DNA of 64,000 nucleotides from Acetobacterium woodii (lineage in GTDB: Bacteria; Bacillota; Clostridia; Eubacteriales; Eubacteriaceae): contig JACQZP010000026.1 in the NCBI GenBank assembly GCA_016213825.1, forward strand, positions 372,001 to 436,000. The letters run 5' to 3'. Position 1 is the stretch's first letter, and each line of letters begins with the position of its first letter. Position numbers and translations under genes: made by a program. The notes under the pieces are model-generated. The model ran no database searches. It worked only from the letters and a program-made list of their open reading frames with translations, and had not been told where the DNA came from. This document shows positions 11,017 through 63,170 of the stretch, one piece after another.

Positions 11017-11098
11017 TTGACAGAAAAAATTGCACATAATATAATATTTACAATTTAACCGGTAAAGTTTTCATTAAATTATAAATTTATCCGGTAAA
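11017..11098 (+). promoter_or_regulatory. Consensus promoter followed by two AACCGGTA-type operator copies
   Basis: TTGACA (11017-11022), 17-bp spacer, TATAAT (11040-11045): a full consensus housekeeping promoter. Downstream, AATTTAACCGGTAAA (11052-11066) and AATTTATCCGGTAAA (11084-11098) form a direct repeat 32 bp apart, about three helical turns. The first is centred 15.5 bp beyond the -10, where a bound repressor would block initiation. The same arrangement occurs at 16389 and 63119. Confidence 0.75.
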
Positions 11099-11126
11099 AA
11101 AACGTTATCATTGTTAGGAGAAAATT

Positions 11127-12296
11127 TTGGAAAAGAGAAAAATTAAGGTTGCGATTTTGTCGATCTCATCATTGTTGATGATCTCAATGACCGCATCAGC
11201 GATTCTGGCCGATATTCAGGCCTTTTTTGTGGGCGTGGATCCATCGCTGATTTCGATGGTGTTAACCATCCCATCATTAATGGGGCTTGTCTTTGCCTTT
11301 GCATCCGGCCCGTTATCACTGCGAATGCCGAAAAAAAACCTGGTTGTCTTTGGCCTGGTCTGCGGATTGATCGGAGGGATGGTCGCGCTGCTTTTTGGTT
11401 CGTTCAGTATTTATGTGTTGTTGGGCTGCAGTCTATTATTGGGGGTTGCTCAGGGGATCAATTCAACCATGTCAATGGCCTTGATTGCCGATTATTTTGT
11501 GGCTGAGGAAAGTGGGGCCCTGATGGGCCTGCAGTCGGCCTTCGTCAACGGCGGTAGCATGGTGCTGCTGTTTACTTCGGGAATGTTGGCCGGGATCCAG
11601 TGGCAAATGTCTTATCTGGTTTATCTGGTCTTTATTCCAGTGACTGTCATTGTCATGAGAAACTTGCCCAAAGATCAGCCTCTGGCTCATGAAGTAGATA
11701 AACAGACTGAAAAAAGCGCGAAACTCAATGCCCGGGTTTATTTTACCGCCGTGATCATGTTTTTATTTGGCGTTTTTCTGTTTGTTTTTCAGACTAATGT
11801 CGCCATGTATGTGGCCGGCAAAGGTTTTGGCGATGCCTCAACTAGTGGTCTGATCAATACTTCGATGTCAGCCGCCGGAATGCTCACTGGGGTGCTGTTT
11901 GGACGGATGCAACGGGTTCTTAAAAAACTGGTCATTCCGGTATCGCTATTGGTTGGTGCACTGGGAATGCTGGCCATCTTTGTGGTTGGTTCGCTGCCAT
12001 CGTTGTTTATCGGCGCGATGTGCTGTGGCTTTTGTCTGGCGACTATTAATCCGGCGGGTACATTTCTGGCGGCCAACGCAGTTCATCCTTCGATCAGTTC
12101 ATTAGCCATTGCCGTCGTTACCGCAGCCACCAGCGTGGGGATCTTTGTCTCACCGATCCTTTCCAATGCAGTAGCTAACGCCAGCGGCGGCAACATCGAA
12201 ATTAAATTTCTGCTGGCCGCTCTGGGGCTGTTCAGTGTAGCCGTGCTGTCCTGGTTTGGCAATATGATTTTGGATAAAAAACAGGTTGGGGCATGA
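11127..12296 (+). CDS. MFS transporter (12-TM class)
   Basis: 389 residues, almost entirely hydrophobic, with 12 predicted membrane helices and a cytosolic charged loop near residue 190 (HEVDKQTEKSAKLNA) dividing two six-helix halves. The first half has a short MPKKN loop between helices 2 and 3 in place of a strong MFS motif A. Translation starts at TTG with TAGGAGAAA upstream. Its substrate is not readable. It has the same operator type as the corrinoid/methyltransferase operon and resembles the transporter at 18410 in size and organisation, so uptake of a methylated substrate is a reasonable inference. Confidence 0.85.
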   Translation: MEKRKIKVAILSISSLLMISMTASAILADIQAFFVGVDPSLISMVLTIPSLMGLVFAFASGPLSLRMPKKNLVVFGLVCGLIGGMVALLFGSFSIYVLLGCSLLLGVAQGINSTMSMALIADYFVAEESGALMGLQSAFVNGGSMVLLFTSGMLAGIQWQMSYLVYLVFIPVTVIVMRNLPKDQPLAHEVDKQTEKSAKLNARVYFTAVIMFLFGVFLFVFQTNVAMYVAGKGFGDASTSGLINTSMSAAGMLTGVLFGRMQRVLKKLVIPVSLLVGALGMLAIFVVGSLPSLFIGAMCCGFCLATINPAGTFLAANAVHPSISSLAIAVVTAATSVGIFVSPILSNAVANASGGNIEIKFLLAALGLFSVAVLSWFGNMILDKKQVGA

Positions 12297-12339
12297 TTTT
12301 TCGACCACTGAATTAAAAAAATCGAATGATCACCAAAAG

Positions 12340-12373
12340 TTCAGCTAAGAGCAATTTTAGCTGAATTTTTTTT
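12340..12373 (+). terminator. Rho-independent terminator after MFS transporter
   Basis: TTCAGCTAA (12340-12348) pairs with TTAGCTGAA (12357-12365), followed by eight T residues. Confidence 0.92.
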
Positions 12374-12404
12374 GCGTTCGGCCATACTAATCCTGAACTA
12401 CTGA

Positions 12405-12419
12405 ATGTTCCCGGAACAT
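12405..12419. promoter_or_regulatory. 15-bp palindrome upstream of the GGDEF-EAL gene
   Basis: ATGTTCC-C-GGAACAT is perfect apart from its central base. It lies 190 bp upstream of the ATG at 12611 and just after the preceding terminator, so it could be an operator for the diguanylate cyclase gene. The remaining spacer is AT-rich, with a possible -10 TATACT near 12533. Confidence 0.35.
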
Positions 12420-12610
12420 GAGTTGGATCAAGATTGAGCGCCAGATTTATTTTTTATTTGAGCAGGAATTTAAATAGGGCATCGATAGTAATAAAGTGAC
12501 AACTTAATTGTTTAAGACAAATAAAAAAAGGTATACTATAAAACATCAAAAATTTATTGCCAGCTTTATCTAAACACTGATAACCGGGATTCCGGCAAGG
12601 AGAAAGATTG

Positions 12611-15559
12611 ATGCAAGTTAAGCAAAAAATAAAAAGGCGGTTTTTATATCTAATGCCTGGTTTCATCGGGATACTCTTTATTTTCTTTTTTCAGACCTTA
12701 ATGGTACAAGGACAAGATAAGAGTCAAAAGGTTTTGTACATCAGCTCCTATAGTGAAAGCTACGCACCAGTTCCCGATCATATCAAAGGGATACAAGGTG
12801 CCCTTGGGGACAAGGTCATACTTGATATTGAATACATGGACACAAAGCGATTGGATACAGCAGAAAATAAACAATTGTTTTATGAACTGATTAAATTTAA
12901 ATTAAAAAATTTACCCGCCTATGATGCCGTCATTGTAGGGGATGACAATGCCTTGCAATTTATAATGGAACGCAAAGATGAACTGTTTCCACAAACGCCA
13001 ATCGTATTTTTTGGTATCAATAATTGGGAAAGTGGCCGGAAAGCGGCGGAAGATCCTCTGGTTACCGGCATACTCGAAAAATTTTCGCTAGTCGAAACCA
13101 TCAACGTTGCGAAGTCCTTTAAACCTGGTGCCACGAAGGTAGTTGCAATTGTAGATTCCACTCTCACAGGCCAGGGAGATCAGCAACAGCTTAATGAAAC
13201 CCGAGCTGCTTTTCCAGATATGGAATTCAGTTTGTTAAATGTATCCGATTATACCTTTAAGGAATTTTCAACGATTTTGGGAACATTAAACGAAGACACC
13301 ATTTTACTTTTTTTAAGTATGTCTCAAGATAAAACCGGAACCTATATGAATATGGCGGATGAGTATGCCTTCATCAAGGAACATACCAAGATACCAGTCT
13401 ATAATGCCACTTTTGGAGGCGTCGGAGCGGGTCTGATGGGCGGAAAACTAATTGACTATGAGGCCTTTGGAAAGATTTCCGGCGAATTGGTCATGGAAAT
13501 TCTGGGGGGAAAACCAGTGGAGTCTATCGATGTAATCGAGGAAACTCCCTATTATTACATTTTTGACTATGACCTAATCGAAAAATTTAATATTGATAAG
13601 CGCTTAATTCCGGCGGGCTCAGTTTTGGTTAATAAGGAAGAAAACCCTATGGAAAAGTACTGGGGTATCCTTGTGTCGATTGGAATCATTGTCATCTTCC
13701 TTACTTTAGTTACGTTAATTCTGATTGCCGATAATCTAAAACGTCGGACCATTCAAAAGGCTTTAGGTGAAAGTAATGAAAAACTTAAAAGCACATTCCT
13801 GGAACTTGAAGAAAAAGAAGAAGAATTGAGAAATCAATACGAAATTATTAAAGTAAATGCGGTTGAATCAGAAATTCTAAACCAGAAATATGCCATTGCA
13901 ACAGAAACAACCAATAGTGCTGTATGGGAATTAAATCTGACAAACAGTGAGATCATGATTTCAGAGAACTTTTCTCAAATTGTCAACCAGAAAATTAATA
14001 AAAAGGAAAATATTTTCACCTTAATGGATTTATTGTTGGATCAGACGTCTATAAACCAATTAAGTGATGTGATTGATGCTTACCAGAAAGGGAAAATTTC
14101 AGAAATCAATATTCAGATCCCAATCATGAATGGGGAACAGGAAAAAAAGTGGATTTTAATCCGGGGGAGGGGTATTAAGCAGGAGAATCAAGAGGTGAAG
14201 CAGCTCCATGGTATTTTGATGGACACCACAAAAATGAAAGAACAGGAAGACTATATCAAATACCTGGCCACCCATGACTATTTAACGAAACTCCCCAATC
14301 GATTGAACTTTCTGAATCATTTATCGAATGAATTAGATGCCGGTAAATCCGGGGCAGTTTTTCTTTTTGATATTGACAATTTTAAGGGTATCAATGATAC
14401 CCAGGGCCATGTCTATGGTGATGAATTATTAAAGATCATTGCCGAACGATTAAAAAATAACGTCGACAAAAAGATGTTTGCGGCCCGATTAGGTGGCGAT
14501 GAATTTCTTGTTCTGATTAAAAACACCAACAATCATCAGGAAATTGACACTTATGCAAAAAAAGTCATTACCATTTTCGATGAATCCTTCAGGCTTGAAC
14601 GGAAGGAAAATTATATCAGTATCAGTATGGGGGTTACCTGTTTTCCAGAGGACAGTGCCGACATCGACCAGTTGATTATGCACGCCGATACCGCCATGTA
14701 TTCAGTTAAACATAGTGATAAAAACAATTATGCTTTTTATCAGAATGATATGAAAAAGGATATTGACAGTAGAGTCAAGATCGAAGAAATTTTACGGAAT
14801 GCCTTAAAGAATGATGGGTTTAAGTTAGTCTATCAACCGCAAGTCGATTTAAAAACAGGGATGATCGATGGATTTGAAGCGTTGCTAAGATTAAAGGAGC
14901 ATGCCATTCGTCCAGATCAATTCATTCCAATTGCGGAAGAAACCGGTTTGATTATTAAAATCGGGCGATGGGTCACTAAAGAGGTGGTTGAACAGTTTGT
15001 CAGATGGCGGGATAAAGGTTTAGGAGAAAAGAAGATCGCGATTAATTATTCCAGTAAGCAGCTAAAAGATAAGGAATATGTCAAATATCTGGAAAATCTG
15101 CTTGATGAAAATAAAGTAAAAACAGAGTTGATCGAAATTGAAATCACTGAAAGTATTTTATTGGAAAACAATACAATTACTATGGACTTTCTTCACGAAC
15201 TAAAAACTGCCGGCTTCAAAATTGCCCTTGATGATTTTGGTACCGGATATTCATCGCTGCATTATTTGACTTATATTCCAGTTGATAAGGTCAAGCTTGA
15301 TAAATCCATTAATGATAAGTTTTTGAATTTGGAAAACAATAAGGTAATGGACAGTTTGATTTTTCTGGCTCATAGTTTGAACCTGAAAATTACTGCCGAA
15401 GGGGTTGAAGTATGGGGAAAATATTTACGACTAAAAGACGGTGGCTGTGATTACATTCAGGGTTACTTGTTCAGCAAACCCTTAGATCCGGCTGATGTAG
15501 AGGAAGTATACAATCAAAATTTTATTGAAGTAGCGCAATTAATTGACGCTATTGAATAG
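12611..15559 (+). CDS. Membrane sensor with ABC-substrate-binding-like domain, PAS, GGDEF and EAL domains
   Basis: About 982 residues. A membrane/signal segment (15-35) is followed by an extracytoplasmic region (about 40-335) of the ABC-substrate-binding-like type (VLYISSYSES; IVFFGINNW), a second membrane helix (350-372), a coiled coil and a PAS-like region (420-550). GGDEF (LGGDEFLVL) is intact and lacks an RxxD inhibitory site just upstream. EAL is also complete (FEALLRL, DDFGTGYSS, TAEGVE). So both c-di-GMP synthesis and breakdown are possible, controlled by an external ligand. I prefer the ATG at 12611 with AAGGAGA 7 bp upstream over the TTG just before it. Confidence 0.9.
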   Translation: MQVKQKIKRRFLYLMPGFIGILFIFFFQTLMVQGQDKSQKVLYISSYSESYAPVPDHIKGIQGALGDKVILDIEYMDTKRLDTAENKQLFYELIKFKLKNLPAYDAVIVGDDNALQFIMERKDELFPQTPIVFFGINNWESGRKAAEDPLVTGILEKFSLVETINVAKSFKPGATKVVAIVDSTLTGQGDQQQLNETRAAFPDMEFSLLNVSDYTFKEFSTILGTLNEDTILLFLSMSQDKTGTYMNMADEYAFIKEHTKIPVYNATFGGVGAGLMGGKLIDYEAFGKISGELVMEILGGKPVESIDVIEETPYYYIFDYDLIEKFNIDKRLIPAGSVLVNKEENPMEKYWGILVSIGIIVIFLTLVTLILIADNLKRRTIQKALGESNEKLKSTFLELEEKEEELRNQYEIIKVNAVESEILNQKYAIATETTNSAVWELNLTNSEIMISENFSQIVNQKINKKENIFTLMDLLLDQTSINQLSDVIDAYQKGKISEINIQIPIMNGEQEKKWILIRGRGIKQENQEVKQLHGILMDTTKMKEQEDYIKYLATHDYLTKLPNRLNFLNHLSNELDAGKSGAVFLFDIDNFKGINDTQGHVYGDELLKIIAERLKNNVDKKMFAARLGGDEFLVLIKNTNNHQEIDTYAKKVITIFDESFRLERKENYISISMGVTCFPEDSADIDQLIMHADTAMYSVKHSDKNNYAFYQNDMKKDIDSRVKIEEILRNALKNDGFKLVYQPQVDLKTGMIDGFEALLRLKEHAIRPDQFIPIAEETGLIIKIGRWVTKEVVEQFVRWRDKGLGEKKIAINYSSKQLKDKEYVKYLENLLDENKVKTELIEIEITESILLENNTITMDFLHELKTAGFKIALDDFGTGYSSLHYLTYIPVDKVKLDKSINDKFLNLENNKVMDSLIFLAHSLNLKITAEGVEVWGKYLRLKDGGCDYIQGYLFSKPLDPADVEEVYNQNFIEVAQLIDAIE

Positions 15560-15564
15560 TCTAA

Positions 15565-15614
15565 CAATCCCCCAGCAAATAGGCATTTGCTGGGGGATTG
15601 CTAGTTTATTTTTA
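15565..15614. terminator. Strong bidirectional terminator between GGDEF-EAL and TetR genes
   Basis: A perfect 16-bp stem (15565-15580 with 15585-15600) with a 4-nt loop and nearby T-rich DNA. It separates convergent genes and can serve both. Confidence 0.9.
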
Positions 15615-16274
15615 TTATTCAATTTGAAAATAAGGCTTAAATTCAAAGTGAACCTGAGAAAGGGCTTGTTTGCTTTCCTTAACGATGGCATCAATCCGTT
15701 TTGAGTCAATGTGCATTAATACAAAATTAAGGCGGGTTATATAATCCAGACAATCTTCCTGTGAACATTTGAACTCGCCCCGGTCGTAAGCCCATAAAAC
15801 AGAAAAACCAGCGCCCCGGGCAGCATTGGCAATCATGGCCAGTTCATCGATATCATCGCGAATATCCAAATGATAACGGCGATCGTGAATTTTATAAAGC
15901 CGGATACTGTCCTGACTGAACAGATCTTCATATTTGTCATCAGCCAGTTCTTTCAGAAAGCGCATAGCCTTAGGATCAGTGAGAAACATCTGATTATACA
16001 ACCAAATCTCAACTGCGGTACTGACCTGAAGGTCGACCTTCCGTCCTTTAAAATAGTCGGTATAGAGTTTAAAGGCCACGTTGTTTTTGAGGTCAAAAAG
16101 GAAGGTATCACTGACCGCCCGGGCCAAACTTGATTTCGATTTATAATAATAGGAGATCAGGGGTTTAGTAATTTCACAGATCTCGGCAATTTGATCCAGG
16201 TAAGTTTTTTTGTAACCCTGTTCATAAAACAGCTGGCTGGCCACCTGGAGGATTTGTTCTTTTTGGTTATTCAT
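15615..16274 (-). CDS. TetR-family transcriptional regulator, likely repressor of the corrinoid/methyltransferase genes
   Basis: About 219 residues. The N-terminal helix-turn-helix is clear: ILQVASQLFYEQGYKKTYLDQIAEICEITKPLISYYYKSK, read in pieces as the TetR fold (helix, turn at GYKKT, recognition helix ending YYYKSKSSL). The C-terminal ligand domain is all-helical with no recognised signature. The ATG at 16274 has GAGAGAG upstream; an in-frame ATG five codons earlier lacks one. It is divergent from the corrinoid operon, and candidate operators lie in the shared spacer and at two other promoters in the window. The inducer may be a methylated compound (inference). Confidence 0.88.
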   Translation of the reverse strand: MNNQKEQILQVASQLFYEQGYKKTYLDQIAEICEITKPLISYYYKSKSSLARAVSDTFLFDLKNNVAFKLYTDYFKGRKVDLQVSTAVEIWLYNQMFLTDPKAMRFLKELADDKYEDLFSQDSIRLYKIHDRRYHLDIRDDIDELAMIANAARGAGFSVLWAYDRGEFKCSQEDCLDYITRLNFVLMHIDSKRIDAIVKESKQALSQVHFEFKPYFQIE

Positions 16275-16353
16275 GGTTATCTCTCTCATATTGGAATTTT
16301 TAGAATATCACTTCATTTTAGCGCTTTCGACTGATGGATGCAAGTTTATTTTA

Positions 16354-16367
16354 CTGTACCGGTTCAA
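16354..16367. promoter_or_regulatory. Operator-like site GTACCGGTTC between TetR and corrinoid genes
   Basis: The CCGG core centred at 16360.5 has the flanks TGTACCGGTTCA, matching the AACCGGTT motif of nearby sites. It lies on the TetR side of the divergent promoter and could mediate autoregulation. Confidence 0.5.
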
Positions 16368-16388
16368 ATTAAATTGATGTAAAATGTA

Positions 16389-16452
16389 TTGACAATTCGT
16401 AAAAAACCGTTTACAATACAAATATTGAACCGGTTAAAGATACTAAACCGGG
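16389..16452 (+). promoter_or_regulatory. Promoter and operators of the corrinoid/methyltransferase operon
   Basis: TTGACA (16389-16394), 17-bp spacer, TACAAT (16412-16417). GAACCGGTTAAAG is centred at 16431.5, 14.5 bp past the -10, and AAACCGGG is centred at 16449.5. The core AACCGGTT is a perfect 8-bp palindrome. The leader up to the ATG at 16617 is about 190 nt with no gene in it; I found no cobalamin-riboswitch B12 box there. Confidence 0.75.
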
Positions 16453-16616
16453 AGAATGCGTTTGGTGATATCACTGATTTTATCGATTATATGGTGTTGT
16501 TATGGGATTTTTACGCGTTTAATAATGCGAATATAAAAACGAAAGATATCAGAATAAATAATCAAAAGCTTCTCATTTCGTAAGAAATTTGAATTTGTTT
16601 AACAGGAGGAAGAAAG

Positions 16617-17246
16617 ATGTCAAAAATTGAAGAAGTTAAAGCTAAGGTTGAAGCAGGGAAATCTAAACTGGTTCCCGGACTGGTTCAGGAAGCACTCGAT
16701 GAAGGTGCAGCACCAGCTGCGATTCTGCAAGCAATGGTAGAATCCATGAGCGTAGTTGGGGATAAGTTTTCTTCTGGAGAAATCTTTGTGCCAGAAATGC
16801 TAATCGCCGCTAAAGCGATGTCAAAAGGTGTGGAAGTATTAAAACCACTAATGGCTGGAGACGGTTCTGCTTCTCTGGGTACCTGTGTTATTGGAACGGT
16901 TGCTGGCGATTTACATGATATCGGAAAAAATCTGGTTTCGATGATGATCGAAAGTGCTGGTTTTGATATGGTGGATTTGGGCGTAGATGTCCCAGCTGAT
17001 ACTTTCGTACAAGCTGCAAAAGATAATGCCAATGTCAAATTAGTTGCCTGCTCTGGTTTGTTAACCACCACCATGCCCGCGTTAAAAGAAGCAGTCCAGA
17101 CCATTAAAGCTGCTTGTCCAGATATAAAAGTTATTGTCGGTGGAGCACCGGTAACGCCAGAGTACGCGGCCGAAGTTGGTGCTGACGGATATGCACCAGA
17201 TGCCGGAAGTGCTGCTGTAAAAGCGAAAGAATTGGTCACAGCATAA
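16617..17246 (+). CDS. Corrinoid (methyl-carrier) protein of a methyltransferase system
   Basis: 209 residues with the two-domain plan of methanol/methylamine/O-demethylase corrinoid proteins. A helical cap (residues 1-90, including DKFSSGEIFVPEML) precedes a Rossmann B12-binding domain. That domain has the cobalt-coordinating DLHDIGKNLV motif (D-x-H-x-x-G) at about residue 100, an S-G-L-L segment and a final GGAPVT loop. It carries a methyl group on Co(III) between the substrate methyltransferase encoded next and a tetrahydrofolate methyltransferase not present in this window. AGGAGGA precedes the ATG. It is first in the operon. Confidence 0.93.
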   Translation: MSKIEEVKAKVEAGKSKLVPGLVQEALDEGAAPAAILQAMVESMSVVGDKFSSGEIFVPEMLIAAKAMSKGVEVLKPLMAGDGSASLGTCVIGTVAGDLHDIGKNLVSMMIESAGFDMVDLGVDVPADTFVQAAKDNANVKLVACSGLLTTTMPALKEAVQTIKAACPDIKVIVGGAPVTPEYAAEVGADGYAPDAGSAAVKAKELVTA

Positions 17247-17330
17247 TACCTTCAAATTAGTACAAGCAACGCTTGTTAATTATTATCTACACTGAAAACG
17301 TATCACACATACCGTTAGGAGGTAGTAAAA

Positions 17331-18308
17331 ATGTTAACAAAAAGACAAAATATGCTTGAAACCATCAAGGGTGGCAATCCTGATCGTTTCGTCAATCAAT
17401 ATGAATTTCTGAACATTATTATGGAAATTCCGACTGGCCTGGCATTTAATTATGGCCAAACTTGGAAAGATCATTGGGGAATTACCTGGCAATGGCCTGA
17501 AGGTCAGTTGGGGATGTTCCCGGTCCATCATGATGGACTCGCTGTTATTCAGGACATTACCGAATGGCAGAAGTATGTCAAAAAACCGGAAATTGCGAAA
17601 TCAGACGAAGCCTGGGCAGCGGCTATTGAACATGCCAATACGGTTGATCGCAATGAAGAGTATGTAGCTGGCTTCTTTGCTCCAGGCATCTTTGAAATGA
17701 CTCATCATTTGATGGGAATGGAAAATGCATTGATGGCTCTTTATGAAGAACCGGAAGCGATGCATGAACTCATTGATTACCTGGTTGGCTATGAATTGGA
17801 ATTTGCCGAAGTAATGGTTGAAAAAATCAAACCGGATTGCATTTTCCACCATGATGATTGGGGTAGCCAAATTTCATCATTCGTTTCGCCTGATATGTTT
17901 GAAGAATTTTTCTTGCCTGCCTATAAAAAAATCTATGGCTTCTATAAAGCCAACGGCGTTGAACTCGTTGTTCACCATAGTGACAGCTATGCTGCTAACC
18001 TGGTGCCGTTCATGATCGACATGGGCATTGACATCTGGCAAGGTGTTATGAACACCAACAACATTCCCGAACTGATCAAAGAATACGGTGGGAAAATTTC
18101 GTTTATGGGCGGTATCCATAGTGGTCAGGTTGATTTCCCGGCCTGGACTCCTGAAATTGTCGCCGACTTTGTGGAAAAAGCCTGTCGCGATAACGGGAAG
18201 CTATACTTCATTCCCTGTCAAACATCTGGTCTTCCCATTGATAATTTTGAAGGGGTATACACTACCGTCAGCAAAGAAATTGATCGTATGAGTACGGTTC
18301 TTTTCTGA
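17331..18308 (+). CDS. Uroporphyrinogen-decarboxylase-superfamily methyltransferase (substrate:corrinoid)
   Basis: 325 residues of the URO-D TIM-barrel family that includes MtaA/MtbA and O-demethylase methyltransferases. Recognisable parts are the start TKRQNMLETIKGGNPDRF, a metal-ligand-like HHDDWG near residue 175, VVHHSD near 215 and a late FMGGIHSG. The gene follows the corrinoid protein by 84 bp, with AGGAGG before the ATG, so it probably demethylates a substrate onto that carrier. Metal ligands look His/Asp-rich rather than the H-x-C...C set of MtbA; the substrate (methoxylated aromatic or another methyl donor) cannot be read. Confidence 0.85.
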   Translation: MLTKRQNMLETIKGGNPDRFVNQYEFLNIIMEIPTGLAFNYGQTWKDHWGITWQWPEGQLGMFPVHHDGLAVIQDITEWQKYVKKPEIAKSDEAWAAAIEHANTVDRNEEYVAGFFAPGIFEMTHHLMGMENALMALYEEPEAMHELIDYLVGYELEFAEVMVEKIKPDCIFHHDDWGSQISSFVSPDMFEEFFLPAYKKIYGFYKANGVELVVHHSDSYAANLVPFMIDMGIDIWQGVMNTNNIPELIKEYGGKISFMGGIHSGQVDFPAWTPEIVADFVEKACRDNGKLYFIPCQTSGLPIDNFEGVYTTVSKEIDRMSTVLF

Positions 18309-18338
18309 AATTTCCAGATCTAAATAATTTTAATTCAT

Positions 18339-18379: not shown

Positions 18380-18409
18380 TGAACATACAACTAATAAAGG
18401 AGGAATAAT

Positions 18410-19582
18410 ATGAATCAAGTAAAACCAATCTCAGCTTTTACCATCTTGGCCCTGGCGTTTTTTGGAATGGGTGTTGGGACAATTACCCCAGCCCTTAATG
18501 CAATTTTTGTACAATTTAGTGATTTGCCGATTACCACCCTTTTGCTGGTGTCAACCCTGCCATCATTGCTCGTCATTCCAGCCACTATTATCGCTGGAGC
18601 CGTAGCTGGTAGCAAAGTCAAATATAAAACCTTAGCTATCCTGGGGATGACCCTCTTTGTACTAGGTGGTGTTGCTCCATATTTTGCAACTGACTTTACT
18701 GTCATTCTGATCGAACGTGCCGTCTTTGGTATCGGTCTTGGGATTATGTCACCATTGGCCAATTCACTAGTCATGGGACTTTATGAAGGCGATAAAGTAG
18801 CAACGATGACTGGAATGGTTACCCTTGCTATGAACATTGGGGGGATGGTCCTTCAATTTATGGGTGGTTATTTTGCTTCTATCGGCTGGAATTACAGTTT
18901 CCTGCCTCATGCCCTTGGTATTATTTCTCTAATTATGGTTATCTTCTTCTTACCAGAACCAGCCAAAGCACCAGTTACTGCTCAAACCGAGGTTGTTCCC
19001 AAAGAAAAGTTGCCAGCAAAAGTTTGGATTACCGTACTGGTCTACGGGCTCTTTACCCTGACTATTTATCCAATGCTGGTTAATATGTCCACCCTGATTG
19101 TTAATCGTGAATTAGGAACAACTGCAACAGCTGGAATTGTTCTCGCATTTCTGACCATCGGTGGGATGCTTGCCGGATCTATTTTCGGTAAGGTTTTTAA
19201 AATTTCCGGTCGATTTGTCATGGCATTAGGATTTGGTTGCGCTGCGATTGGTCTGGCGATGGTGGTTTTTGCATCAAACGTCTTCATCTTAACCATCGGT
19301 GTATTTATCGAAGGGTTAGCGATGTCCACCTTAATTCCAGCCTGTATGATGATCATCGGCATGTCTGCTAAACCAGCTCAGATGGCCTTTGCTGTATCTC
19401 TGTTCTTTGCTGGTATGAATCTTTTCGGATTCTTATCAACATACTGGATCGGCGCCATTGCTGGCTTCACTGGTGATGCCGTTACTGCACCAATCATGGT
19501 CGGTATGGGGGTCCAAGCAGTACTTTGCGTAATCTATCTGGTTGTTAATCCATTAAAACCAAGTTCTGGTAGCGCACAGTAA
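18410..19582 (+). CDS. MFS transporter linked to the corrinoid/methyltransferase operon
   Basis: 390 residues with 12 predicted membrane helices. It begins KPISAFTILALAFFGMGVGT, has a short cytosolic loop after helix 2 (GSKVKYKT) and a central charged loop (EVVPKEKLPAKV, about 195-205). A good Shine-Dalgarno (AAAGGAGGA) precedes the ATG. Position after the corrinoid protein and methyltransferase suggests uptake of the methylated substrate or export of the demethylated product. It resembles the transporter at 11127 in size and organisation (sequence identity not measured). Confidence 0.87.
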   Translation: MNQVKPISAFTILALAFFGMGVGTITPALNAIFVQFSDLPITTLLLVSTLPSLLVIPATIIAGAVAGSKVKYKTLAILGMTLFVLGGVAPYFATDFTVILIERAVFGIGLGIMSPLANSLVMGLYEGDKVATMTGMVTLAMNIGGMVLQFMGGYFASIGWNYSFLPHALGIISLIMVIFFLPEPAKAPVTAQTEVVPKEKLPAKVWITVLVYGLFTLTIYPMLVNMSTLIVNRELGTTATAGIVLAFLTIGGMLAGSIFGKVFKISGRFVMALGFGCAAIGLAMVVFASNVFILTIGVFIEGLAMSTLIPACMMIIGMSAKPAQMAFAVSLFFAGMNLFGFLSTYWIGAIAGFTGDAVTAPIMVGMGVQAVLCVIYLVVNPLKPSSGSAQ

Positions 19583-23057: not shown

Positions 23058-23657
23058 ATGGGCGAAAAAGCTGAATATAAAAGTGCGATCCGTTCGCGGC
23101 GGATGATCCGGCAGGCATTTCTGGAACTGATCCAGGAAAAGGATGTGGAGAAAATTACAGTAACGGATATTATCACCCGGGCTGACATCAACCGGGGGAC
23201 TTTTTATGCCCACTATCGGGATATTCGGGATTTGATGGAGCAGAACGGCAATGAAATCATTGCTAAAGTCATCAGTGTGCTGAATGACTTTCACTATCAT
23301 CACTTTATGCATGATCCGCTGCCACTGCTACGAAAAATTTCCGATTGGCTGGAAGCAGATTTAGAGTACTTTCGCATTCTGGTCAATGCTCGGGGCTCGG
23401 AAGCGTTTCTGACCAAACTCAAAGAAATTTTTATTCAGCAGATGGAAATAGACAGTGACATCCCCGAAGCAATTAAGCAATCGCCGGAATTTACCATCCA
23501 TTTGCATTTCATGGCTGGTGGCATTATCAATCTGTATCAGGTTTGGCTCCGGGGCGGAATCAACACTTCGATTCAGGAAATTACAAATCAAATTTGTCGA
23601 ATTCTGTCGATTTATCCCGGATGTCCGGATGTAACGGTTGGGAATAAAAATTTATGA
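23058..23657 (+). CDS. TetR/AcrR-family regulator, likely repressor of the MMPL exporter
   Basis: 199 residues. The helix-turn-helix is typical of the Dha-operon-type TetR subgroup (RSRRMIRQAFLELIQEKD, then KITVTDIITRADINRGTFYA, HYRDIRDL), with a roughly 130-residue helical C-terminal domain with an Ile/Leu-rich end. TAGGAG lies 6 bp before the ATG. It is divergent from the exporter with overlapping promoters, so it most likely represses both itself and the exporter until an exported compound binds. Confidence 0.88.
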   Translation: MGEKAEYKSAIRSRRMIRQAFLELIQEKDVEKITVTDIITRADINRGTFYAHYRDIRDLMEQNGNEIIAKVISVLNDFHYHHFMHDPLPLLRKISDWLEADLEYFRILVNARGSEAFLTKLKEIFIQQMEIDSDIPEAIKQSPEFTIHLHFMAGGIINLYQVWLRGGINTSIQEITNQICRILSIYPGCPDVTVGNKNL

Positions 23658-55453: not shown

Positions 55454-56299
55454 ATGATTTTGAATGAAAATATAAACCAGATGGATTTAAATCAGATCCT
55501 GGCTACCCGCCATGACAACGGCGCGGATTTCTGGGCAACACCGGACGGACGCTTGGGTATTGAAAAACCAATCAGCACGCTGACAGCATTGATGATCATG
55601 AGTGAATTAAACGTATCAGGAGATCATGAAGCGCTTCAGGGCGCGGCTGAACTGGTTCTGATGGCAATAAAAGACGATGGCCGGGTGCGGATTACCCCCA
55701 AGGGTGCAATCTATCCCTGCCATACGGCTCATGCGGTGGCAGGTCTTTGCCGAAATGGTTATGCTGGTGACCCTCGGGTACAGTCTGCCCTGGATTATCT
55801 GCTTTCTAGCCAATACGATGATGGCGGCTGGCGTTGTAAAAAATTTACATTTGGACATGGTCCAGAAACCGATTTTTCCAATCCTGGGGTAACACTCTTA
55901 GCCCTGGACGCATTTCGTTGCGCGGGAATTCATAAAGGAAAAGCAGATTTAGATCGGGCCGTTGAAACGTTGCTGGATCACTGGACCGTCAAGAAGCCCA
56001 TTGGTCCTTGTCACTATGGGATGGGAACCTTGTTTATGCAAGTGGAGTATCCGTTTCTGAGATATAACCTGTTTTATTATGTTTATGTGCTTTCCTTTTA
56101 TGAAAAAGCCCAGAAGGATGAACGTTTTAAGGAGGCGTTATCGGCATTAAGGAAGAAACTGGATGGCCAGAATATGATGATTGTAGAACGTCCTAATCGC
56201 AAACTGAGTAACCTGGATATTTGCAGAAAAGGGAAATCATCAGAAGTCGCCACCGAGCGATATTTAGAAATCATAAATAATCTGGCGGAAATGAATTAG
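55454..56299 (+). CDS. Alpha/alpha-toroid protein, prenyltransferase/squalene-cyclase-like repeats
   Basis: 281 residues. A predicted all-helical protein with a QW-like motif QYDDGGWRC near residue 115 and paired helices (AVAGLCRNGYAGDPRVQSAL; DRAVETLLDHWTV), as in the terpenoid-cyclase/prenyltransferase fold. The catalytic DxDD of squalene-hopene cyclases is not present, so enzymatic cyclisation is unlikely; a binding or lyase-like role is possible. AAGGAGA precedes the ATG. It lies in an operon with the MerR gene, next to the decarboxylase-like gene. Confidence 0.7.
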   Translation: MILNENINQMDLNQILATRHDNGADFWATPDGRLGIEKPISTLTALMIMSELNVSGDHEALQGAAELVLMAIKDDGRVRITPKGAIYPCHTAHAVAGLCRNGYAGDPRVQSALDYLLSSQYDDGGWRCKKFTFGHGPETDFSNPGVTLLALDAFRCAGIHKGKADLDRAVETLLDHWTVKKPIGPCHYGMGTLFMQVEYPFLRYNLFYYVYVLSFYEKAQKDERFKEALSALRKKLDGQNMMIVERPNRKLSNLDICRKGKSSEVATERYLEIINNLAEMN

Positions 56300-56302
56300 C
56301 AG

Positions 56303-56358
56303 AAAGGGGCAACCTGATAACAGGCTGACTTTTCCAAGAAAAGTTTAGTTGCCTTTTT
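56303..56358 (+). terminator. Rho-independent terminator after the toroid gene
   Basis: GGCAAC (56308-56313) pairs with GTTGCC (56348-56353), with an inner CTTTT/AAAAG hairpin, then a five-T run. The remaining 300 bp to 56660 is the upstream region of chemoreceptor 3, with no gene seen. Confidence 0.75.
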
Positions 56359-56660
56359 ATTTGATCTGTTATAAAATAACAAAAGAATATTAATAGAATA
56401 GTAACAAGACATTAAATGATTGCAAAGAAGCCGCCAATGCTGCTTTCTCTGCGCTCTTTTTTTGTCTCTTTTTTTGACAGAAACTGGAATAAGAGCGAAC
56501 TGCATTGATGTTAAATGCAAGTAAAAAGTTTCGCCTAAACTAAACGAGTCGATCGAATTATGATATCATCGAAGCAAAAGGTTTAAAGTAGGTCACACTA
56601 CATAAATACATCTTACGAAAGGACTAAAATGATATCGCAGGATATCATCGGTGAAAGAAA

Positions 56661-59600
56661 TTGAATAATAAGAGAGGTTTACTCGTCCGGATGTTGTTAA
56701 GCATCGGGCTGCCGGTTGCTATTATTTTTGCTGTAGTCGCCGGTACCGTTCTATATGTGGTCGATCAGTCCATTACTGAAATTAAAGTTAATGAATTATC
56801 AGCTCGGTCTGAATCGGTTTCACATCAAATTGAAACATATTTTACAAAATATCTGGAGGATGCCAAGCAATTGTCAACGAGTCCGGAAATCCAGAGCCTG
56901 TTTAATCAGGTGACTCCGGGGGTAGGCATTACCACAACAGCTAATTTTCCAGAAATCAAGCAAAACCTGGATAATGTGGTCGCCACCGATCCTGAAAATA
57001 TTCGGGTAACGTGGATTGCCGATGTGGACTCCAGTCAGTTTACCCAGTCTGATGGGGTAGTATCAGACGCTTCCTATGACATCAACGCCCGGCCCTGGTT
57101 TAAAGAACTGATGGCGCAAAAGAAGGCTTTTATTTCGGAGCCCTACGAAGATATTACCACCAAGGAAATGATCGTTAGCGTGGTTGCCCCGGTATTCAAA
57201 CCGGGAACTCAAGAACTGGCGGGAGCCACCTGTGTGGATGTTTCCATCGACCGGATCAAAGGCATCATTGCTGAAAACAAAATTGGCAAATCCGGATTCT
57301 TTGTCGTTTCAACCAATAGCGGTATGGTTTTTGATCATCCCAACCCGGATTACAACAATGGTATGCTTTCCGATACGGATATGTCAGCGAATATCATTGC
57401 AGCGTTGATGGATAAAACGACAGGACCGATCACCTATTCAACGAATGGCATCGAAAGCAGAGGTTATGTCACCGAAATCGGCGACACCGGCTGGGTGTTG
57501 GCAACCGGATTGCCAACATCAGAATTTAATGAAGCCTTTTCAGGAATTCGGACCATGATGTTGCTTGTTTTTGGGCTGGGACTCCTGGTCATTATAGGAA
57601 TCATCGTCGCCTCAACGAGAAACTTCGTCCGCCCCATTACCCGACTGGCTAAGGCCGCTGATCGCCTGGCACTGGGGGATGTGAATATCGACCAGACCAT
57701 GGCTGAGGATGCCAAAGATGACGAAATTGTTGAGCTCACCCGATCCTTTGTAAATATGGCGGGAAACATCCGGGAACAGGCTGAAGCCGCCCAAGCCATT
57801 GCCAAAGGTGATTTAGCTATTGATTTTAAACCAAAATCGGCGGGAGATGTGCTGGGTAATAGTATGGTTTCAATTAAAGAATCAATTGGAAATCTGGTCT
57901 CCGATACCATTATGCTTTCCGATGCAGCAATTAAGGGCGATTTCACCAGACGGGCAGCCGTGGACAACCACTCGGGCGAGTATGCCCAGGTTATTTCCGG
58001 TGTCAATCAGACTCTTGACACTGTGGTAGACAAGATGTTCTGGTATGAGGCTATTATTGACGGGATTCCATTCCCGGTTCATGTTACCGACAATGACATG
58101 AAATGGACCTTTATGAACCATGCATTTGAAGATCTGATGATTGAGAATGGCGTGATCCATGATCGGGTTTCTGCCTGTGGGATGGATTGTTACAATGCCG
58201 GAGCCAGCATTTGTCAAACCCAAGGCTGTGGAATCAGACAACTGGTGGACCAGGGATCATCAGAAAGCTATTTTGAATGGGTTGGCCGCAGCAATAAACA
58301 GGCAACTGCTTATCTCAAAAATAAAAATGGTGAAAATGTTGGTTTCATTGAAGTAGTTACCGATATTACGCCGATTATTCGTGTCAGTGATTATACTAAA
58401 GCTGAAGTAGCCCGTTTGGGTGAAAATCTGATCCATTTAGCAGAAGGAAATCTGGACTTTGATATGAATTGTGGTGCTGCCGATGAGTATACCTCGGAAG
58501 TCAGTGCGCAGTTTAATGAGATCAATAATAGTCTGATGCTGGTCAAAGAATCCATCGGCACCTTAATTGATGATGCCACCATGATTACCAATGCTGTCAT
58601 TGATGGAAATCTCCGGGCCAGAGCTGATACCAGCATCTTCCAGGGAGCCTGGCGGGAAGTCGTCGGCGGAATGAATGCCATTCTGGAAGAACTGAATAAA
58701 CCCCTGGGGGAAGTCATGGAAGTCATGGAAGCCATTTCTAATGGAAATCTGCGTGTACGGATTAATGGCGAGTATCGGGGAGATGTGGATTTACTTAAAC
58801 AAAGCGTTAATTCAACGGCCACCTTGCTGGACGGGGTTGTTGGGGAAATTACCGAAAAAATCGAACAATTATCCCAGGGAAATCTGGATATTGAAAATGC
58901 TCAAGCGTTTCGGGGCGATTTTGTGACCATTTCCAATGCCCTGAATGTGATCATTCATTCCCTCAATGAGGTTATGGGAGATATTAATATTGCCGCTGAG
59001 CAAGTGAATGTCGGCGCCAATCAGGTGTCCGACAGTAGTCAGGCATTGGCCCAGGGTTCCACCGAACAGGCCAGCTCGATTCAGGAACTGACCGCCTCCA
59101 TTGCTGAAATTGCTGATCAGACCAAAAACAACGCTGTTGATGCCAACAAAGCCAGAGAATTGGCAACCGATGTAATGGGGAATGCTGAAAAAGGCAATCG
59201 TCAGATGACCGAAATGCAGCGTTCCATGGTCGAAATTAATAAATCATCCGAGGATATTTCCAAAATTATCAAAGTAATTGATGACATTGCTTTCCAGACC
59301 AATATCCTGGCGCTTAACGCTGCGGTTGAAGCTGCTCGGGCTGGACAGCATGGTAAAGGGTTTGCGGTGGTTGCCGAAGAAGTTCGGACATTAGCAGCCA
59401 GAAGTGCGGAAGCTGCCAAAGAGACGACGGTGCTGATTGAAGGCTCCATCAGCAATGTTCAGGAAGGAACAAAAATAGCCGATGACACTGCCGGAGCACT
59501 GGATGAAATTGTTTCAGGAATTGGCAAGGTTACGAGCTTAATTGGTAATATTGCTGGAGCATCGAATGAACAGGCCACCGGTATTGCCCAGATCAATCTG

Positions 59601-59738
59601 GGCGTTGAACAGGTTGCCCAAGTTGTTCAGCAAAATTCAGCGACTGCTGAACAGAGTGCCGCTGCCAGCGAAGAACTCTCCGGCCAATCGGTTCTGCTGA
59701 AACAAATGATCGATCAGTTCAAAATCCGAAAGGTTTAA
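56661..59738 (+). CDS. Methyl-accepting chemotaxis protein 3, dCache sensor plus cysteine-PAS module
   Basis: 1025 residues. N-terminal membrane helix (about 12-32), double-Cache region (about 35-285; [18 protein letters not shown] and GWVLATG), second helix (about 292-315), HAMP and HAMP-like repeats, PAS domain (about 460-580) with [14 protein letters not shown], more HAMP-like repeats and the methyl-accepting coiled coil. It starts at TTG. The N-terminal membrane segment closely matches that of chemoreceptor 1, which lacks the Cache part. The ribosome site is weak (GTGAAAGAAA). Ligands unknown. Confidence 0.9.
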
Positions 59739-59770
59739 TCAGTATTCCCATAAAGACAAGATAATTTTAC

Positions 59771-59810
59771 AATCACAAAGACCACCTTTGGCGAGGTGGT
59801 CTTTGTGATT
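59771..59810 (+). terminator. Rho-independent terminator of chemoreceptor 3
   Basis: AATCACAAAGACCACCT (from 59771) pairs with GGTGGTCTTTGTGATT (59795-59810), a near-perfect 16-bp stem. The T run after it is short. Confidence 0.85.
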
Positions 59811-59897
59811 GTCAGGGAGTTTGTGCTATGATAGAATTAAAACTATACGTTAACCTCATAAAGCTACATATGAAGCCGCTTTGGGAAGGAGAAAATT

Positions 59898-60479
59898 GTG
59901 AAAATAATATGTTTTGGCGACAGTCTGACCTTTGGTTACCAGGTGTCCCGGGAAGAAAAATGGCATGTGATTGCTGAAAAAAAGACCGGAATCCAAATGG
60001 TCAATCGCGGTGTCAGTGGGGATACCACTGAGGGTATGCTGGAACGGATTCAGAAACAGGTGTTGGATGCAAAGCCTGATGGAGTAATCCTGATGGGTGG
60101 CTACAATGATATCTTTTTTAACCGTAACTGGGAGCGAGCCGCACAAAATATGAGTGCAATGGTTGACCAGTTCAAAACTAATAATATTAAGGCTTTTGTC
60201 GCTATCCCTCCGCCGATTCATCTGCCGGTGGCTTTTAAAGATGGTGGTGAGATGGTCGATTTTGAAGAATCGGCGGTAATGATTGAAGCCTATTGCCAGT
60301 GGTTAAGAGATTATACGGTATCATCGCGGATCCCAACCCTGGATTTCAGAGCATCCATCGACTGGACTGACAAAGATCTGTATCTGGATGGGATTCATCA
60401 GAGTCCCGCTGGTCATCAGCGAATGGCGGACAGTTTCATTGTATTTTGGAAATCCAGCCGAGTTGTGTCAGTCAGCTGA
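59898..60479 (+). CDS. SGNH/GDSL-family hydrolase
   Basis: 193 residues. Block I ICFGDSLTFGY (Ser nucleophile at residue 9), block II NRGVSGDTTEGM, block III MGGYNDIFF, block V LYLDGIHQSPAGH (Asp/His pair) are all present, so a catalytically complete SGNH esterase/lipase. No signal peptide, so probably cytoplasmic. Starts at GTG with GGAAGGAGAA upstream. Isolated between terminator and the GNAT gene; the substrate is unknown. The 180-bp spacer after it (60480-60660) shows no gene. Confidence 0.9.
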   Translation: MKIICFGDSLTFGYQVSREEKWHVIAEKKTGIQMVNRGVSGDTTEGMLERIQKQVLDAKPDGVILMGGYNDIFFNRNWERAAQNMSAMVDQFKTNNIKAFVAIPPPIHLPVAFKDGGEMVDFEESAVMIEAYCQWLRDYTVSSRIPTLDFRASIDWTDKDLYLDGIHQSPAGHQRMADSFIVFWKSSRVVSVS

Positions 60480-60660
60480 TCGATCACCGTCTGATCCAGG
60501 TCAAAACAAAGACAAGTGGTAGCTACTAGACGGAAGTATTCAATCAGGAATTCTCTGATCATCAGGATGCTATGTAATGGCAGACTCATGTGCCTGTCAA
60601 TGACAGTCAAAAAAACTAATTATAATTGTAATTAAACAGGAATATGGAGAGGGAAAGAAA

Positions 60661-61263
60661 ATGTTAAATGAGCATGAATTAAAAACCTGCACCGAATTGT
60701 TGAAAACCCGGTTTATGGAAGATCCTGGGGTAATCTTTCAATTGCATGATCTGGATCGTGCCGAACTACTGATTGAAGCACAATTTGAAGGACAGATCCA
60801 GGCCTTTATAGAAGAAAATGCAGTGCAGATCCTGGAAGGTGGCAAAGGGCTACTGATTGGCTACTCCACCAAAGAATTGCCGGAAGACCGGCTCATCAAC
60901 GTGATGCAGCAATCATCTCGGAAACTTGTTGAAATAGTGACAGAAAAAGAACTGCAGGTGATTCAGGAACGTGCGATCAAACAGTCTCAGATTATTCCTC
61001 AAAATTGGCAAACCGCCTATTGTGATGGCGATGTATATCATCTGCTCGTGATCGCCACCGACAAGTCTGCAAAAGGAACCGGCATTTTTCGAAAACTTAT
61101 TACCCCAGTTCTTGAAGAATGCGCTGCGAAAAAAGAGCCCATCATTCTGGAGACCTTCAATCCAGATAACCTACCGATTTACGAACACTTTGGCTTCCAA
61201 TTAATGGAATCCCATTCTTCAGACGAGATGGATTTGACATGTTACTGCATGATGCATTTATAA
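60661..61263 (+). CDS. GNAT-family acetyltransferase
   Basis: 200 residues. C-terminal half is a GNAT fold: VYHLLVIATDKSAKGTGIF (motif A, with the K-G-T-G acyl-CoA loop), then ILETFNPDNLPIYEHFGFQL (motif B). The N-terminal half (1-110) is helical and less conserved. A GAGAGGG-type site precedes the ATG. It lies 16 bp before the ADP-ribosylglycohydrolase-GNAT fusion gene, implying co-transcription. Confidence 0.85.
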   Translation: MLNEHELKTCTELLKTRFMEDPGVIFQLHDLDRAELLIEAQFEGQIQAFIEENAVQILEGGKGLLIGYSTKELPEDRLINVMQQSSRKLVEIVTEKELQVIQERAIKQSQIIPQNWQTAYCDGDVYHLLVIATDKSAKGTGIFRKLITPVLEECAAKKEPIILETFNPDNLPIYEHFGFQLMESHSSDEMDLTCYCMMHL

Positions 61264-61279
61264 AAAAAGGAGAAAACTA

Positions 61280-62608
61280 ATGCTGGGTGCAATTATCGGG
61301 GATATTGTCGGTTCCCGTTTTGAATTCAATAATCATCGAAACAAAGACTTTGAGCTGTTTACTGAGACCTGTGAGGTTACGGATGACAGTATCATGACGC
61401 TGGCAGTGGCAAAAGCGATTATGGAAGCCGGTAAATCCGGTTGTTTGCCCTTAGAAAATGGATTAGGAAACAGGGAATATTATCGACGGATGGAAGCATT
61501 AACAATAAAATACATGCAGGAAATTGGCCGGAACTATCCTGATTGCGGTTATGGCGGTCGGTTCCGACGCTGGATTTTCAACGACGATCCCCAGCCCTAT
61601 AACAGTTATGGAAACGGCGCCGCCATGCGAATTAGTCCGGCTGCCTTTGCCGCAAGATCCGAAGCCGAAGCCCGGACACTATCGGAAGTAGTTACCCGGA
61701 TTACCCATAATCATCCAGCAGGTTTAAAGGGCGCTGAAGCTGTCTCATTGGCTATCTACATGGCCCGCAGTGGTGCCGGCAAAGACGCTATCCGGGAGCG
61801 GATCAAGGTTTGTTATTATGATCTGAATTTTACTATCGACGAAATCCGGGACACCTACCAGTTCAACGAAACCTGCCAGGAAACAGTACCTCAGGCGATC
61901 CAGTCCTTTTTCGAGGCCACTTCCTTTGAAGATGCCATCCGGACAGCTATTTCGGTGGGTGGTGACAGTGACACTCTGGCTGCCATCACCGGCGCCATTG
62001 CCGAGGCATACTATGGAGTACCAAAAGAACTGGAAGAAAAAGCTCTGTTATATCTGGATACTGAGCTTCGTGAAATTTATGATAACTGGCAAGAATATTT
62101 AAAAACTGGTCCTCGCTTAATAGTTGTAAGAGAAGCCGCCCTTGGGGAAAGGGAACTCCTTTTTAGGGACGGCTATCAGGAGTGGTCCAAAAATAGAAGC
62201 TTAGAAGAATACATCCGGGACAACTCTAAAGAAGACAACTATGGAAAACGTTTTGTCATCGATTTGGAGGGGAAAATCATCAGTTCATTGATCGTTTTGA
62301 ACTTGAAACCGATTATGGGGAAAACGGTTTACGGCATTGGTTCGGTACTCACCCCCAAACTCCATACTGGCAAAGGTTACGCAACGATTCTATTGAAAAA
62401 CTGTATTAAACAGATTGAAAAAGACGAGAATGCTCTGATTTTTCTTTTTTCCGATATCAATCCGGATTTTTACAAAAAGTTGGGCTTCAAATTGCTCCCA
62501 AAAGAACTGCAGAAAAGCGGAAAAAGTCCGTGTATGGTCAGATGCGGAGAGCAGGACTGGCATAATCTACTCAAGGTTTCAATTGATCGAATTCCAGAGT
62601 ATTTTTAA
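61280..62608 (+). CDS. Fusion: ADP-ribosylglycohydrolase (ARH/DraG) domain with C-terminal GNAT domain
   Basis: 442 residues. Residues 1-270 are an ADP-ribosylglycohydrolase: IIGDIVGSRFEF, metal ligands TDDSIMTLAVAKAI at about 40 and GGDSDTLAAITGAIA at about 225. Residues 280-442 are a GNAT-like domain with SVLTPKLHTGKGYATILLKN (acyl-CoA loop) and NPDFYKKLGFKLLP. The join occurs near EYLKTGPRLIVVREA without a visible frame problem. It would remove ADP-ribose from a target (Mg2+-dependent) and acylate something; the pairing is unusual. AAAAAGGAGAAA precedes the ATG. A GNAT gene lies just upstream, a small unknown gene downstream. Confidence 0.85.
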   Translation: MLGAIIGDIVGSRFEFNNHRNKDFELFTETCEVTDDSIMTLAVAKAIMEAGKSGCLPLENGLGNREYYRRMEALTIKYMQEIGRNYPDCGYGGRFRRWIFNDDPQPYNSYGNGAAMRISPAAFAARSEAEARTLSEVVTRITHNHPAGLKGAEAVSLAIYMARSGAGKDAIRERIKVCYYDLNFTIDEIRDTYQFNETCQETVPQAIQSFFEATSFEDAIRTAISVGGDSDTLAAITGAIAEAYYGVPKELEEKALLYLDTELREIYDNWQEYLKTGPRLIVVREAALGERELLFRDGYQEWSKNRSLEEYIRDNSKEDNYGKRFVIDLEGKIISSLIVLNLKPIMGKTVYGIGSVLTPKLHTGKGYATILLKNCIKQIEKDENALIFLFSDINPDFYKKLGFKLLPKELQKSGKSPCMVRCGEQDWHNLLKVSIDRIPEYF

Positions 62609-62676
62609 GCCCGGCTTATCGATCTAGAGTCTAATCCCAGTGGAAAAAGTATTGAACTAATCGAGGTGGTGAGAAA

Positions 62677-62913
62677 ATGTCTTTTATTTTGGAATACGAA
62701 AATTTAATCCAGGAGATTAATGAAGACATCGAAGCGGGCATTGTGACCGTGAATGATTGCATAAAGGTTGTCCGTAAAAGAAAAACCGGTCCAGATGATT
62801 ATTGCCCAATTAAGGATTATTACTATGCCGATAATCATCCCAATGTAAAAGTTGAGCAAATGCAAGTTGGTGAGGTCTTAAAAGAATTGACACTGCGTAA
62901 TATGATGCGATAA
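62677..62913 (+). CDS. Small hypothetical protein
   Basis: 78 residues: an N-terminal acidic helix (YENLIQEINEDIEAGIVTVN), a basic stretch RKRKTG, then a tyrosine-rich PIKDYYYADN. GAGGTGGTGAG precedes the ATG. It might belong to the ADP-ribosylglycohydrolase-GNAT operon (68-bp gap). Family not recognised. Confidence 0.65.
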   Translation: MSFILEYENLIQEINEDIEAGIVTVNDCIKVVRKRKTGPDDYCPIKDYYYADNHPNVKVEQMQVGEVLKELTLRNMMR

Positions 62914-62980
62914 TATCGAAACAATAATGGGATCATGGTTATCAAAACAGATGCTTAGTGTTGGGTATTACTGAAACAAA

Positions 62981-63018
62981 AAAACAAACGGGATGTTACT
63001 CACCACGTTTGTTTTTTT
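62981..63018. terminator. Terminator after the small hypothetical gene
   Basis: AAAACAAACG (62981-62990) pairs with CGTTTGTTTT (63006-63015), with seven T in all on the right. Confidence 0.88.
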
Positions 63019-63118
63019 AATTGCAATTAAAATTATAGCGAATCTCAACATGACTATCAATAATACTTAATTTATATATAGAAAAAACGCAAAAAAGAGA
63101 ATATATGGGAAAAAAGCA

Positions 63119-63170
63119 TTGACTTTGAAATCGTAAAATATTACAATAATATAAATTTAACCTGTTAAGT
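63119..63170 (+). promoter_or_regulatory. Promoter with AACCTGTTAAG operator, upstream of the partial methyltransferase gene
   Basis: TTGACT (63119-63124), 17-bp spacer, TACAAT (63142-63147), followed by TTTAACCTGTTAAG centred at 63162.5, 15.5 bp past the -10. The operator is one base off the AACCGGTT sites at 11052 and 16427. The leader to the start at 63444 is long (about 285 nt) and contains no gene or recognisable cobalamin riboswitch. Confidence 0.65.

Follow-up and report, generated by a model that had tools for sequence, protein, structure and literature searches.

A conserved palindrome points to a probable small TetR regulon of corrinoid methyltransferase and transporter genes in Acetobacterium woodii

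The 64-kb stretch of Acetobacterium woodii DNA considered here (the window, G000:C15:372001-436000 of a 3.94-Mb genome; G and L numbers label the genomes and loci that were compared) carries a tetR gene and three promoters, P1 to P3, each of which is followed by a palindrome resembling AACCGGTT. Judged from the sequence, it is very likely that one TetR protein (15615-16274) runs a small, scattered regulon through this shared palindrome, in which P1 to P3 would be repressed, tetR would repress itself and a fourth promoter, P4, on another contig would be included. A single TetR regulon had been proposed in an earlier note on this DNA, and the proposal finds support in the conservation of the site at each promoter, in the matching of operator and TetR types among paralogues and in a swap of both in G009. 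The genes concerned, which encode a corrinoid protein, a URO-D-type methyltransferase, a remote URO-D-like protein, two MFS transporters and probably the methyltransferase behind P4, fit one inducible system of transport and demethylation.

The letters of the window confirm promoters of the form TTGAC[AT]-N17-TA[TC]AAT at 11017, 16389 and 63119, and the distances reported in the earlier note from the -10 box to the axis of the palindrome (15.5, 14.5 and 15.5 bp at P1, P2 and P3) are correct (Table 1). The further operator copy that it described on the tetR side is present on the minus strand, and its statement that a AACCGGTT-like site stands at all three promoters holds, except that the exact core at P3 is AACCTGTT and not AACCGGTT. 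The argument that this shared spacing is hard to get by chance is borne out: among the 31 promoter-like sites of the window (5/6 or better in both boxes, spacer of 16-18 bp), three have a match of at least 12/14 to TTTAACCGGTTAAA with the axis about 14-15 bp past the -10 box, and none was obtained in 60 first-order Markov surrogate windows, which held on average 16.8 promoter-like sites and about 1,009 in all. In the whole window, four 14-mers reach at least 12/14, namely the three operators and a possible second P1 site, which is poorly conserved among relatives.

Conservation was assessed in 19 genomes of the genus, and all counts include the window's own locus. At P1, 13 of the 14 loci of the transporter gene MFSa (83-100% identity) have TTGACA-N17-TATAAT followed at the same distance by TTAACCGGTWAA, and the operator core there is not exceeded in conservation by any of 161 ten-column windows. 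P2 promoter and site are found at 10/14 loci of group I tetR, the type of the window's own gene (74-100% identity; none at L010, L014 and L016), or at 11/14 if G010, which has an insertion between tetR and P2, is counted. The P2 operator core is identical in all 11 sequences compared, each of which was chosen by TGAACCGG after the promoter, and no ten-column window out of 211 is better conserved, in rows chosen because they contain it, a choice in favour of the operator. At P3 the site is present in 7/9 loci (at least 84% identity) and missing in L073 and L075 (G005 and G014, in which no group I TetR was found). What is expected of a co-regulated regulon, the same site at a fixed position of several promoters and kept in relatives, is thus found at P1 to P3. 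Among side observations on these loci, the methyltransferase gene downstream of P2 is missing or reduced in L198, L199, L210 and L221 (in L198 the corrinoid gene as well) with promoter and operator retained, the tetR frame beside P2 in G006 (L185 1-760) is broken after 17 codons, and the P3 gene frame of G012 (L070) has 195 amino acids only, yet promoter and site are retained.

In scans of whole genomes, the loose promoter-plus-site pattern has two matches in the genome of the window, P1 and P2, against two for the control (2 vs 1 with a narrower spacer); across the 19 genus genomes it has 42 matches against 13. Judged from the list, P1, P2, P3 and P2-like promoters account for 30 of the 42, which leaves 12, about as many as in the control. 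A genus scan for TKAACCGGTTMA found 49 sites in 17/19 genomes (control 13), 29 of them being P1 to P4 or tetR sites, again as judged from the list. The dispersal over 52 kb that had been emphasised is overstated for P1: a group I TetR is present in 13 other genomes, and in all of these but G008, G013 and G017 MFSa and tetR share a contig and are no more than 4 kb apart (10/13), which leaves P3 and P4 as the really distant members. MFSa and tetR adjoin in nine relatives; in the window they are separated by a GGDEF-EAL gene that also encodes an ABC_sub_bind domain (12608-15559, a frame of 983 amino acids), and in G010 (L187) by a frame of equal length.

The P4 site, CTTAACCGGTTAAA at C10:137863 (L144), precedes a methyltransferase gene (G000:C10:136755-137774) whose product is 56% identical to the P2 methyltransferase MT, and it is kept in 11/14 loci (at least 87% identity). 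In all 11 rows the site is followed downstream by a TTG.. -35 box and by TGATATAAT as extended -10; in the 9/11 rows matched, its axis precedes the -10 box by 36 bp (37 in L254), counted to the first base of that box. None of 161 ten-column windows surpasses the P4 operator core in conservation, in rows that were likewise selected for the site, which favours the operator. L262 (G016) has CTTTACATGTAAAG instead, the palindrome type beside two distant TetRs, L026 and L249, and L263 and L264 have no site at P4. L263 is the gene of G006, where the P4-type methyltransferase (90%) stands within the P2 operon, which ties P4 to the system. P4 probably uses the same site as P1 to P3, but the constant spacing on which the earlier note relied is not general, the P4 site being upstream of the -35 box.

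The regulator has a TetR_N domain (PF00440, 41.1 bits, cut-off 24), and its predicted model (mean pLDDT 93.4) has the helical TetR fold with an N-terminal helix-turn-helix (HTH), comprising 11 helices and two short C-terminal strands. Among the Foldseek matches listed (50 of 996) all are TetR-type or unnamed regulators, with TM-scores of 0.28-0.51 over the query. No named TetR subfamily (RefZ, RutR, BetI, AcrR, PsrA, others) was recognised among the 12 NCBIfam families matched at E ≤0.001, the best of which gave 36.6 bits against a cut-off of 180. Paralogous TetR genes are divergent from other genes and have palindromes round a TTGACA-type promoter in the same layout, and the palindromes differ: AACCGGTT in group I, TACCGGTA in group II, AACATGTT in group III, TACGCGTA at L111 and TACATGTA at L026 and L249. 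On a tree of 38 TetR rows, 29 of which we labelled with the adjacent palindrome (nine without a clear palindrome were left uncounted), the five operator types require four changes, the minimum; where L026 and L249, which have long branches, attach to the tree is uncertain.

In 28/29 labelled rows, residue 41 is S where the half-sites are AAC and T where they are TAC, and residues 26-27 are F-Y in 5/5 AACATGTT rows and L-D or L-E in 20/21 AACCGGTT and TACCGGTA rows (the exception is L021), all in rows that are related to each other and not independent. The HTH of the predicted model consists of helices 26-33 and 37-43, with residue 41 in the second and residues 26-27 at the start of the first. 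In G009 the MFSa gene has AACATGTT sites at P1 and a divergent, 48% identical TetR of group III, so that site and neighbouring regulator differ together. Because the operator type follows the TetR tree among the paralogues, the adjacent TetR is the best candidate for the protein that binds the palindrome. At 6/7 labelled group II and 3/5 group III loci, the TetR gene has a paralogue of the P2 methyltransferase no more than 3 kb away.

The spacers of P2 and P3 also contain the element TCGTAAA, at offsets between the boxes that differ by 4 bp; P1 is without it, and it recurs in paralogous methyltransferase promoters. The pattern TTGAC-N2..7-TCGTAAA-N4..9-TANNAT matches twice in the genome of the window (P2 and P3; control 0) and 35 times in the 19 genomes (control 4), three of the 35 being overlapping duplicates. 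At 29 of 30 TCGTAAA loci, two of which repeat a promoter already counted, a homologue of the corrinoid protein, methyltransferase, P3-type or MFSb gene lies downstream within 0.6-1.5 kb (not at L205). On balance we lean towards a wider picture for Acetobacterium and its kin in which every paralogous TetR repressor would have a matching operator and, in many cases, a corrinoid methyltransferase system to itself, the operator letters would insulate the systems from each other, residues near 26-27 and 41 would set specificity, and the shared TCGTAAA would add common control.

In the mechanism that we propose, a TetR dimer would bind 14-bp palindromes close to TTKAACCGGTTMAA. If transcription starts 6-7 bp after the -10 box, the operators at P1 to P3 would span about +2 to +16, and since they would then lie over the start region, bound TetR should block transcription, either at initiation or at promoter escape. 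The copy on the tetR side would give autorepression, and a methylated compound or its product may release TetR. The P4 site is located before the -35 box, and binding there might lead to repression or to activation.

Several findings weigh against a single regulon of this kind. The bare motif TTTAACCGGTTAAA with up to two mismatches occurs 43 times genome-wide, against 56 times for the reversed control; the earlier note had named background frequency as a refuting outcome. This count was rejected as support: what carries the case is where the sites stand and that they are conserved, and the motif as such is not rare. Outside the window there are 39 sites, 36 of them within open frames of at least 80 codons and three not (L144, L155, L174); the in-frame site of L153 has a weak promoter-like match (9/12, axis 17 bp past the -10), and the L174 site, which comes after a T-rich run and stops 64 bp short of the -35 box of a methyltransferase paralogue's own promoter, was taken as chance. 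P3 is the weakest of the promoters, with a broken core (CCTG) in the window and with 40/181 ten-column windows better conserved than the operator (7 rows), or still 23/181 after L074, whose site is 1 bp nearer, is dropped (6 rows). The P1 site is absent from the second MFSa copy of G011 (L043), the sole exception among the 14 loci, and the P4 site occupies a different position relative to its promoter than the sites of P1 to P3. Sites and regulator are also not always found together: in G014 and G005 MFSb is preceded by a P2-like promoter with CTGAACCGGTT[AT]AG, an operator resembling that of group I, and no group I TetR was found in them, their best TetR matches being 58% (of another operator group) and 46%; G018 keeps the P3 site and no TetR orthologue was found in its assembly, which is 81% complete; and G016, with its deviating P4 palindrome, keeps TetR and P1 and is without P2. 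Finally, L026 breaks the residue-41 rule, and AACCGGTT also occurs with L024 and L025, two TetRs from another family; of the genes beside these two, one has no Pfam or NCBIfam match and one encodes a GPH-type transporter, and no methyltransferase was recognised there.

Three other explanations were weighed. The central CG of AACCGGTT speaks for a LacI-family regulator, and against TetR, as the protein that binds it, since this centre is common in LacI-type sites: in the parts of PMC4052901 used here, even palindromes dominate the LacI-family motifs and a central CG pair is found in the motifs of 1173 regulators. In the same parts, however, even palindromes have 16-22 nt, whereas the present sites have 14 bp, and at the paralogous TetR loci the layout is unchanged but the centre is AT (AACATGTT, TACATGTA) or GC (TACGCGTA), in step with the TetR clade. 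No LacI-type protein was found among the 30 window proteins scanned with Pfam, a scan that did not extend to the remaining frames of the window or the rest of the genome. We regard a LacI-family regulator as very unlikely.

A reading in which TetR binds the sites and activates, or acts both ways, is unlikely, although the location of the P4 palindrome, upstream of the -35 box, makes P4 the most plausible place for it; P1 to P3 argue against it, as protein bound to their sites, which cover the presumed transcription start, should block, and as their near-consensus promoters need no activator. That the shared site is a leftover of ancestral promoter duplication, without a current role, we find scarcely credible. 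P2-type promoters are indeed alike among the paralogous systems, but the operators stay while their flanks differ and change together with the neighbouring TetR, and the promoters themselves are not uniform, P1 being without TCGTAAA and P4 different. A regulon under one TetR that would repress at least P1 to P3 remains the reading that we prefer.

Table 1. Positions of promoters, candidate operators, spacer elements and genes (window coordinates unless a locus is named).
Feature	Position	Strand	Basis or remark
P1 core promoter of MFSa gene, TTGACA-N17-TATAAT	11017..11045	+	TTGACA 11017-11022, TATAAT 11040-11045
P1 operator TTTAACCGGTAAAG	11054..11067	+	axis 15.5 bp past -10
Possible second P1 site TTTATCCGGTAAAA	11086..11099	+	32 bp on from first; weakly conserved; missed by the earlier note
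MFSa transporter gene	11127..12296	+	Pfam MFS_1 4.9e-34
tetR gene, 219 amino acids, group I TetR	15615..16274	-	Pfam TetR_N 1.5e-10; orthologues of 74-93% identity in 13/18 other genus genomes
tetR-side operator TTGAACCGGTACAG	16354..16367	-	axis 7.5 bp past TTGTCA-N16-TTTAAT box
Putative tetR promoter TTGTCA-N16-TTTAAT	16368..16395	-	consensus match only
P2 core promoter TTGACA-N17-TACAAT	16389..16417	+	TTGACA 16389-16394, TACAAT 16412-16417
TCGTAAA in P2 spacer	16397..16403	+	pattern scan and letters
P2 operator TTGAACCGGTTAAA	16425..16438	+	axis 14.5 bp past -10
Corrinoid protein gene (CP)	16617..17246	+	Pfam B12-binding 3.4e-25, B12-binding_2 3.6e-16
MT gene, URO-D/MtaA-CmuA-type methyltransferase	17331..18308	+	Pfam URO-D 2.7e-15
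MFSb transporter gene	18410..19582	+	Pfam MFS_1 2e-27
P3 core promoter TTGACT-N17-TACAAT	63119..63147	+	TTGACT 63119-63124, TACAAT 63142-63147
TCGTAAA in P3 spacer	63131..63137	+	pattern scan and letters
P3 operator TTTAACCTGTTAAG	63156..63169	+	axis 15.5 bp past -10; reads AACCGGTT in L070, L071, L074
P3 gene start (360 amino acids in full, runs past window)	63444..64000	+	remote URO-D-like; full open reading frame in L097
P2-like promoter before MFSb, G014	L183 about 3985		no group I TetR found in G014
P2-like promoter before MFSb, G005	L184 about 6086		no group I TetR found in G005

By their Pfam domains, the genes of the P2 operon combine the corrinoid protein and the methyltransferase of a corrinoid-dependent methyltransferase system, the activity of which is predicted. 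Against TIGR01463 (the MtaA/CmuA family) MT scores 40.9 bits (1.5e-10), under the curated cut-off of 235.4, and is thus not a member by that measure. The description of the P3 gene as a second URO-D-type methyltransferase was loose: its product has no Pfam match, although it aligns pairwise with MT at 28% identity over 258 amino acids (E 1e-17). Neither protein had a match in PDB sequence searches, and an Rfam scan of the window returned no family. The P3 leader contains TGAAAACGATTGCT at 63268-63281, which we take to resemble a CcpA cre site, and similar stretches occur in several orthologous P3 leaders. A second TetR gene of the window, at 23058-23657, has TetR_N and TetR_C_8 domains.

In the parts of PMC13222342 (2026) consulted, 26 putative methyltransferase systems are listed for A. 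dehalogenans, the regulation of which is described as largely unexplored. Among the titles and abstracts listed in searches of the open-access PMC library, a scope that leaves out most subscription papers, no account was found of this regulon or of a TetR operator for acetogen corrinoid methyltransferases, and TetR as a whole word has no occurrence in PMC8604678. The mechanism is an ordinary one, the setting has been little explored, and the way in which operator specificity is patterned is attractive. With the sites come promoters that can be named, a candidate for the regulator and predicted rules of cross-talk, which make the regulation of these methyltransferases a testable question, and the pairs of paralogue and operator form a natural set for asking how TetR proteins choose their DNA.

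QacR, TtgR and RutR are local repressors of the TetR family with a divergent target and autoregulation. The TetR_N domain and a divergent target with a palindrome at its promoter are shared with the system described here, and chains of QacR, TtgR, RutR, FadR and FasR are among the Foldseek matches listed (50 of 996) for the TetR model, with low TM-scores; the targets here differ in being corrinoid methyltransferase and transporter genes, and in lying at several loci. With the corrinoid methyltransferase systems of acetogens (MTI, corrinoid protein and MTII), such as Cdm of A. dehalogenans as far as it is covered in the part of PMC13222342 used here, the P2 operon has the corrinoid protein and the URO-D-type methyltransferase in common. 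A paralogous group II locus is further like such systems in having a Pterin_bind gene, whereas no pterin-binding gene is present among the three P2 operon genes scanned; for cdm itself, the same part of that source states that the regulatory system is not identified. The mec cassette of dichloromethane degraders likewise combines a corrinoid protein, an MtaA/CmuA-type methyltransferase and linked regulators, but according to the portion of PMC9768040 used here these regulators form a two-component system, unlike the TetR protein proposed for the promoters of this window.

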